32,323 nt of DNA from Deltaproteobacteria bacterium (GTDB lineage: Bacteria; Desulfobacterota; Binatia; UBA9968), in assembly GCA_016180805.1 (NCBI GenBank), contig JACPAM010000111.1, positions 1 to 32,323 of the forward strand, in the 5' to 3' direction. The notes under the pieces are model-generated. The model saw only the letters and a list, made by a program, of their open reading frames with translations. It did not search any database and was not told where the DNA came from. Made by a program: the position numbers and the translations under genes. Positions 94-23,935 of the stretch are shown one piece after another. The first letter of the stretch is position 1. Each line of letters begins with the position of its first letter.

Positions 94-401
94 ATCTTTA
101 GCCTCGGCCAAAAGGCCTGCCGTGCTTCCCTTTGAAGCCGGAGGGGGGGCGAGGAGAAAAGCCGCGGCGGCGCAGGGGGCTTCGGGACTCCCTTCGCTCC
201 ACGGGACTACGCCACGCGACCCACCGGGCCTGCGCTCGGACGAAGCTTCCGGAATTCCCTGCGAAGTAGCCCTGAAAGCTGTCAGTTCCGGCTTTCATCC
301 GGCGCAGTCCTCGGTCGGTACCCGCTGCTCCGTCCCACAGCCTGCTTGCAGGCGGTTAAGATGGTTTCGCTCGGGGAGCCCGCTCAGCCCACAGCGCCCG
401 A
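94..401. other. Non-coding spacer, GC-rich
   Basis: This is the spacer between the truncated left gene and hairpin copy A. The plus and minus ORFs in the track here are low-complexity (Arg, Pro, Ser, Gly-rich), overlap one another and resemble no protein family I know. No RNA gene or convincing promoter is visible. Confidence 0.5.
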
Positions 402-491
402 GGGGAGCGCGAGCGAGGCTGCGGACGTCCGATTACAAGCGATTCGACTCACGCCACAAACCCATCGGCCGCAGCCGAAAGCACGCTCCCC
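402..491. repeat. 90-bp dispersed hairpin element, copy A
   Basis: The left arm GGGGAGCGCG (402-411) pairs with CACGCTCCCC (482-491) with one mismatch. The inner arm GGCTGCGG (417-424) pairs with CCGCAGCC (469-476). A symmetric unpaired patch lies between the two stems, and the terminal loop is about 44 nt, containing GGACGTCC. The same element recurs at 5871-6073 and 23581-23670, and its total length here equals that at 23581. It sits downstream of the HdrB-like gene. It could be a non-autonomous mobile element, a structured RNA or a terminator-type repeat; which of these cannot be told from sequence alone. Confidence 0.75.
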
Positions 492-590
492 GAGGGAGCT
501 TAGTGACGGGGACAGGCACGCAAGCGAGCCAGTCCCCTCCCGAGGGAGCTTAGTGACGGGGACAGGCACGCAAGCGAGCCAGTCCCCTTG
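491..590. repeat. 50-bp tandem duplication carrying two REP-like palindromes
   Basis: Bases 491-540 and 541-590 are the same 50-bp unit, differing only in the last two bases. Each contains an imperfect palindrome (508-537 and 558-587) that starts GGGGACAGGC and ends GCCAGTCCCC. Its arms pair as GGGGAC/GTCCCC, GGC/GCC and CGC/GCG, separated by A-A mismatches. Related palindromes occur at 6018-6047 and 6106-6138. This layout resembles REP elements mobilised in trans by RAYT (Y1-type) transposases, but no such gene is in the window. Confidence 0.8.
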
Positions 591-5692: not shown

Positions 5693-5883
5693 GGTTGACT
5701 CTCCTTTATGAATTTCTTTTTAGCTTTTAGCGGTTTCTCGGTTCTAAGTCTAGCTCCGCCTCGACCCGCGCACGGGGGTAGTTCACCGGTCTCGGGGACA
5801 AGCCGCTCCGGTCGAGGGCAATAACAAAATAAAAATCGCGACTCGCCCCCTCGACCGGTTGTGCGACCGAGGGGAGCGCGAGC

Positions 5884-5943
5884 CCCGTTGAGTAACTGCA
5901 CGGTCGAGGAACCACCCCCGTGGTCAAGACCACACTCCACGGG
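5884..5943. mobile_element. 60-bp putative miniature insertion with inverted ends
   Basis: The segment begins CCCGT and ends ACGGG, so its termini are inverted repeats. It is bounded by direct repeats of GCGAGC (5878-5883 and 5944-5949), as expected of a target-site duplication. An internal ACCAC/GTGGT hairpin is present. It is absent from the otherwise matching copies A and C. No open reading frame of note lies inside, so any movement would have been catalysed in trans. Confidence 0.5.
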
Positions 5944-6011
5944 GCGAGCGAGGCTGCGGAGACGTCCGATTACAAACGGCACGACTCATGGCACGAACCC
6001 ATCGGCCGCAG

Positions 6012-6049
6012 AGTTACGGGGACAGGCACGCAAGCGAGCCAGTCCCCTC
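6012..6049. mobile_element. REP-like palindrome inserted into hairpin copy B
   Basis: This 38-bp insertion contains the palindrome 6018-6047, with the same core as the pair at 508-587. It is flanked by GCCGCAG at 6005-6011 and 6050-6056, a likely 7-bp target duplication. The uninterrupted target GGCCGCAGCCGA is seen in copies A and C. Confidence 0.55.
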
Positions 6050-6105
6050 GCCGCAGCCGAGAGCGCGCTTCCCGAGGGAGCTTGGTCCATCGGCTGAATG
6101 CGAGC

Positions 6106-6138
6106 GGGGACAGGCACCGCTTCGCGGAGCCTGTCCCC
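6106..6138. repeat. REP-like palindrome variant with 10-bp perfect outer stem
   Basis: GGGGACAGGC pairs perfectly with GCCTGTCCCC. An A-A mismatch follows, then CCGC/GCGG closes a TTC loop. It shares the GGGGACAGGC head with the other three palindromes but has a different loop, so it is a second subtype. It lies about 80 bp downstream of the receiver-GAF-kinase gene (minus strand) and could fold as a 3' hairpin in that transcript. Confidence 0.65.
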
Positions 6139-23358: not shown

Positions 23359-23580
23359 GATCGACCTCCTGGATAAAATGGCTGGCCCGGAACCCTTTTT
23401 ATGTTTAGTTGGGTGCAGTTGTCAAACAGGCTGGCGAAGGAAGCGGGAGCTCCGTTCGGGGACCCGCCTCTCGCACCGAAGGCGATGGGCCTGCGCTTTT
23501 GCCGAACCGTTCAGTCTCGGCGCCTTCGGCTTGCTCGGCAGGCCCCCTCACTCTGAGACGGAGTAGCCGGAAGCGACCGA

Positions 23581-23670
23581 GGGAAGCGCGAGCGAAGCTG
23601 CGGACGTCCGATTACAAACGCTATGACTCATGGCACAGGCCCATCGGCCGCAGCCGAGAGCGCGCTTCCC
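23581..23670. repeat. 90-bp dispersed hairpin element, copy C (best paired)
   Basis: GGGAAGCGCG (23581-23590) pairs perfectly with CGCGCTTCCC (23661-23670). The inner GCTGCGG (23597-23603) pairs with CCGCAGC (23648-23654). A 6-by-6 unpaired patch separates the stems and the terminal loop is 44 nt. Relative to copy A the fourth stem pair is A-T here and G-C there, so both sides changed together. Confidence 0.78.
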
Positions 23671-23935
23671 GAGGGAGCTTATTCCACCGACCGCGGCCCG
23701 ACGGCTCGGTCGCTTCCAGGCAGCACGATGGCTCACCGGTCTCGGCGGCAAGCCTCTCTGTCCGAGGGCAATGCGCCTCTACCTTGAGGAGGCCTTCAAA
23801 CGAAACAATCGGTGTGAGCACCGATGAAGAAACGCGCTACGATCTGCCAAGCACCACAGACGTCATTGGAGCTTCACGTCCGGTGCCCTCGTCCGTCGCG
23901 GCTCGCCCCCTCGACCGCGACTTTTTCCTTCGAAG

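Follow-up and report, generated by a model that had tools for sequence, protein, structure and literature searches.

The spacer between a histidine-kinase gene and a fumarase/lyase gene, upstream of the latter, holds a copy of a hairpin repeat (copy B) that is interrupted by two short segments, each enclosed by an exact direct repeat, and it raises the question of whether such segments are mobile units with defined ends and, if so, how they reached the hairpin. The window (the whole stretch of DNA analysed, 32,323 nucleotides) is contig C24, and the assembly to which it belongs is fragmented (4.46 Mb in 339 contigs, ~91% complete); the genome was read as stretches around matches. The preliminary description of the locus had placed a 60-bp segment, CCCGT...ACGGG, between two GCGAGC repeats and a 38-bp segment between two GCCGCAG repeats, and had counted two surplus bases in copy B; the coordinates and letters are correct and the surplus bases were found (Table 1). 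Hairpin copies A and C are indeed empty sites, with joined sequence at both insert positions. The two segments had been called nested, but they lie side by side in one hairpin, neither inside the other. They had also been thought to reveal their order of arrival relative to the hairpin, which holds in that both are later than the hairpin family, while their mutual order is not fixed by the data.

Table 1. Positions in the window of the three hairpin copies and of the repeats and inserts in and beside copy B.
Feature	Positions	Strand	Remarks
Hairpin copy B, host element, ~92 bp minus the two inserts	5865..6081	+	copies A and C belong to its family
Left GCGAGC direct repeat	5878..5883	+	exact GCGAGC pair in 26/31 copies
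60-bp unit of class v1, with CCCGTTGAGT/ACTCCACGGG as imperfect inverted ends	5884..5943	+	33 genome copies, one site only
Right GCGAGC direct repeat	5944..5949	+	read from letters
Two surplus bases (GA/AG) seen in copy B only	~5959..5961	+	GGCTGCGGAGACGTCC versus GGCTGCGGACGTCC elsewhere
Left GCCGCAG direct repeat	6005..6011	+	read from letters
38-bp REP-like segment, R1: AGTTAC-GGGGACAGGCACGCAAGCGAGCCAGTCCCC-TC	6012..6049	+	~60 R1/R2 places in the genome; junction census
Right GCCGCAG direct repeat	6050..6056	+	read from letters
Second REP-like palindrome, R2: GGGGACAGGCACCGCTTCGCGGAGCCTGTCCCC; preceded by GAGC, followed by TGAGC	6106..6138	+	
Hairpin copy A, lacking both the 60-bp and the 38-bp insert	386..502	+	
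Hairpin copy C, without both inserts	23565..23681	+	

The host hairpin is a large family. Its left-arm pattern has 267 matches in the genome, the core lies far above chance (0 expected in shuffled sequence) and copy C folds as a long hairpin. The same hairpin is present in two same-genus genomes and several same-family genomes, and more distantly in two others; the named hairpin-bearing genomes are metagenome-assembled and labelled Deltaproteobacteria, several of them from groundwater. For about a dozen of the loci filled by the 60-bp unit, an ortholog was identified in G001, a genome of the same genus, at an identity of roughly 75–93% depending on the stretch, and there the hairpin is absent wherever the alignment crosses the spacer, with a clean empty site at L038. 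The hairpin family is not young, yet its insertion is ongoing. At one locus (L012 1480–1510, compared with L225) the hairpin element interrupts a gene at its 3' end; in G001 the reading frame runs on, whereas here a new C-terminus results. Near the centre of L096 a further palindromic unit (GGGGTCGGGAGTC...GACTCCCGACCCC) lies within the hairpin loop, and a GTCCGCC...GGCGGA-type palindrome is present in the same hairpin, so that hairpins gather several kinds of small inserts.

The 60-bp unit recurs in 33 copies in the genome of this groundwater bacterium, as identified by a degenerate search, and in 33/33 it occupies the same point of the 5' hairpin arm, GGGAGCGCGAGC^GAGGCTGCGG. Terminal inverted repeats, CCCGT/ACGGG with an inner GAGT(A)/(T)ACTC and one mismatch, are found in all five sequence classes of the unit. 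An exact GCGAGC pair flanks 26 of the 31 copies with both flanks readable, and, since all insertions share one site, target duplication and a hexamer carried by the unit give the same pattern. A search with the unit's ends yielded 68 matches in the genome, all of them units, two truncated copies or one chance match. For this unit the preliminary description is largely borne out, and on stronger grounds than it gave, as the ends that it placed recur in 33 copies; the copies that it named as a refutation, lacking direct repeats or having other ends, do not hold for the 60-bp unit. Two copies, L295 (G000:C150, G000 being the genome of the window) and L294 (G000:C336), start only at unit position 39, GGTCAAGACC, and one of the two lies at a contig end. 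No larger or full-length element with the unit's ends is present in the ~91% complete assembly, and no other units occupy the same hairpin site in this or the related genomes, four other matches in this genome being ordinary hairpin context.

Only ~33 of the 267 arm matches carry the unit, leaving more than 200 empty sites in the same genome. The comparison with close relatives that had been proposed showed unfilled hairpins in genomes of the same genus and of the same family, where the hairpin is contiguous through the unit site; the 55 exact-arm hairpin copies in the named relatives are likewise all contiguous there, and no unit is present at their loci. No copy of the unit was found in 57 relatives, in GTDB sampled as one genome per species (84,980 species), in viral contigs (IMG/VR) or in plasmids, and an Rfam search returned a single sub-threshold hit at chance level. 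Since the hairpins of relatives are uninterrupted at the site and the unit is absent there, the unit is a derived insertion, and since those hairpins are empty it is later than the hairpin. The alternative that the unit was an original part of the hairpin, lost from copies A and C by slippage between the GCGAGC repeats, finds some footing in that such repeats could recombine and in the internal 7-bp deletion of the copy at L004; it was rejected as contradicted by the empty hairpins of relatives, and the minority of filled arms and the far greater uniformity of units than of hosts leave it hardly credible.

The 31 complete units fall into five sequence classes, within which copies show no difference or a single-base one, apart from the one 7-bp deletion. 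The host hairpins differ within a unit class by a mean of 7.3 in 85 bp (8.6%) and have no class structure, those of the same class being no more alike than those of different classes (permutation p 0.50). Private substitutions number 2 in 1860 bp of units versus 13 in 1275 bp of hosts, roughly tenfold rarer in the units (p 3e-4). Near-invariant classes in diverged hosts that show no link to class indicate that the unit postdates its hosts and did not merely multiply along with them. Its entry into hairpins that had already diverged must have been recent and repeated, from few sources.

How the unit spread is a matter of weighing several readings. The most probable, by our assessment and with some reserve, is that it is a very small non-autonomous mobile unit that inserted into the hairpin with a 6-bp repeat and spread recently from five source versions. 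According to this proposal, a non-autonomous unit with imperfect inverted ends of the CCCGTTGAGTA/TACTCTACGGG type would have arisen or arrived after the species split from its same-genus relative; insertion at the one point of the 5' arm would leave the direct repeat GCGAGC; and the five source versions would recently have spread into hairpins that had already diverged, presumably by transposition in trans through a putative enzyme rather than by conversion between hairpins. Of this picture, the derived insertion, the single site, the young age and the five classes are established, and movement in trans is inferred. Inverted ends together with a 6-bp repeat are the classical anatomy of miniature inverted-repeat elements, which supports insertion in trans; against it stands the absence from the assembly of an autonomous partner with the unit's ends. 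Insertion in trans with a 6-bp duplication is favoured over gene conversion, but not by much. Conversion is a serious rival, one that we regard as having a smaller yet substantial likelihood: the unit would have inserted once or a few times and then passed from filled to empty hairpins by short-tract gene conversion or template switching guided by the arms, with no dedicated transposition. This would account for the single site, which does not discriminate because homology-driven copying would give the same pattern, for the missing partner and for class v5, which seems to have arisen by recombination between v1/v4 and v3 and indicates that units do recombine. It is also consistent with the tandem partial duplications or deletions ending at (GCG)CGAGC in L007, L008, L009, L012 and L022, which show recombination at the site, and with the GGCA left variant shared by 2 of the 4 v4 copies and seen in no other class. 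However, the arms are just 20–30 bp long and diverged, and unit class is not significantly linked to, or transferred together with, differences in the left or the right flank, a comparison of low power given 18 intact left arms and first right-hand bases that hardly vary.

A spread of the filled hairpins as a single subfamily, unit and hairpin moving together, is improbable. In its favour, wherever a filled locus has an alignable ortholog in G001, the latter lacks unit and host hairpin together, so that whole composites did insert in this lineage, and L009 and L012 share both class and host type. Same-class hosts are, however, no closer to one another than different-class hosts, and most filled hosts lie nearest to an empty copy. 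The absence of class structure in the hosts also led to the rejection of simple co-amplification with the hairpin.

A further reading, to which we give a little less than even weight, is that the unit may live as an obligate parasite on a single hairpin repeat, entering it site-specifically by means of a putative enzyme or of a hairpin (single-strand) mechanism; if so, it would rank with the smallest site-specific mobile DNAs known from bacteria. For the question of how REP-like sequences and small mobile repeats move, a young, uniform unit is available here with 33 filled sites, more than 200 empty ones and empty relatives, so that the choice of target, the definition of the ends and the decision between transposition and gene conversion can be tested directly. 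Among rearranged filled hairpins (L009, L012, L007, L008, L022, L023 and L111), left breakpoints cluster a few bases from (GCG)CGAGC.

The 38-bp segment is of a separate and sloppier kind of insertion than the 60-bp unit. It is one of ~60 dispersed palindromes of the form GGGGACAGGC...GCC[AT]GTCCCC, in two types, R1 and R2, of which R1 mostly follows TGAC and R2 mostly GAGC; over both types, TGAC stands at 30 and GAGC at 7 of 55 junctions. The preliminary description had taken its ends to be fixed, with an exact 7-bp direct repeat on either side. The census of 55 genome junctions does not bear this out, as GCCGCAG is present in 5 and no repeat of at least 3 bp in 24, and copies lacking repeats or having different ends, the outcome named beforehand as a refutation, do exist; a fixed 7-bp duplication was accordingly rejected in view of the variable repeats. 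Within hairpins the palindromes occupy two main places, usually directly 5' of GCCGC(A/G)G. At a single loop site the flanking repeats measure 7 bp (copy B included), 5, 4 or ~1 bp, and at the second place there is none; the length shifts with the left junction, which varies, whereas the right one hardly does. Outside hairpins (n = 14, from this genome and G001), an exact repeat of at least 6 bp flanks 36% of the palindromes versus 3% in re-paired controls, the control having been chosen post hoc with the data already seen; repeats there are of 6–8 bp, or longer and imperfect, and variable in length. It is probable that the direct repeats at the REP-like palindromes are real and that their length is not fixed. 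Single-strand insertion by Y1 transposases of the IS200/IS605 type would make no direct repeats.

At L102 and L174 of this genome and L329 of G001, imperfect direct repeats of roughly 20–37 bp, judged by eye, flank the palindromes as though long stretches had been duplicated upon insertion. In the window, a third insertion-like segment of R2 type, flanked by GAGC and absent from the preliminary description, lies beyond copy B (Table 1), and positions 489–588, beside copy A, hold 50 bp of hairpin tail and R1 palindrome (CCCGAGGGAGCTTAGTGAC-REP-T) twice over, as an exact tandem duplication.

Like a REP mobilised by a RAYT, the 38-bp segment is a short, imperfect, dispersed palindrome with a conserved tetranucleotide at its 5' foot. 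Ten Y1 transposase genes are encoded in the genome, several of them flanked by GGGGTCAG-type inverted repeats, while GGGGACAGGC occurs in the flanks covered at none of these 10 loci or of 26 Y1 loci from relatives, and no RAYT flanked by the 38-bp palindrome was found. The junction census revealed no GTAG or CGTC tag, as described for REPs (PMC3733652), at the 38-bp palindromes. The hairpins and the 38-bp palindromes resemble the REP/REPIN/BIME sequences associated with RAYTs (PMC3116915, PMC3733652) in being short, dispersed and imperfect with a conserved 5' flank (TGAC/TTAC or GAGC), and differ in that the sampled Y1 genes are flanked by GGGGTCAG-type palindromes, not by GGGGACAGGC, and in the missing GTAG tag. 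Yeast mitochondrial GC clusters (PMC4478555) are likewise palindromic units of ~40 bp that have short direct repeats, occur in identical copies and undergo shuffling and merging, but they are organellar, have AG/ACT repeats and lack a single obligatory host repeat (PMC4478555). Judged as a MITE, that is, a derivative of a DDE transposon, the 60-bp unit has the terminal inverted repeats and lacks a parent transposon with the same ends; its exact 6-bp pairs (26/31) all come from one shared site, where duplication and carried sequence are inseparable.

The 60-bp unit is closest to two known kinds, the SMR-A elements of Haloquadratum and the IS elements that target REPs. SMR-A of Haloquadratum walsbyi are archaeal elements of ~110 bp that insert into PATE/IS605-type palindromes and were described without target duplication (PMC3119063). 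Like them, the unit is small and geneless, with inverted ends, uniform copies and tens of copies per genome; it has no known transposon with the same ends, these being unrelated to the transposons of its genome, and it prefers the palindromes of another mobile element, in 33 of 33 copies. It differs in being bacterial and 60 bp long, in its restriction to a single point of one hairpin family and in its flanking 6-bp repeats, the GCGAGC pair (a duplication or a carried sequence) departing from the SMR-A description. ISRm22, ISPsy8 and IS1397 enter REP-like palindromes, the former two always at the same point, and ISRm22 makes 6-bp direct repeats (PMC1525189). These elements share palindrome targeting with the unit but carry a transposase gene, and none with the unit's ends was found here. 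An obligatory single palindrome target has its precedent both in the REP-breaking IS elements and in the small mobile repeats of Haloquadratum.
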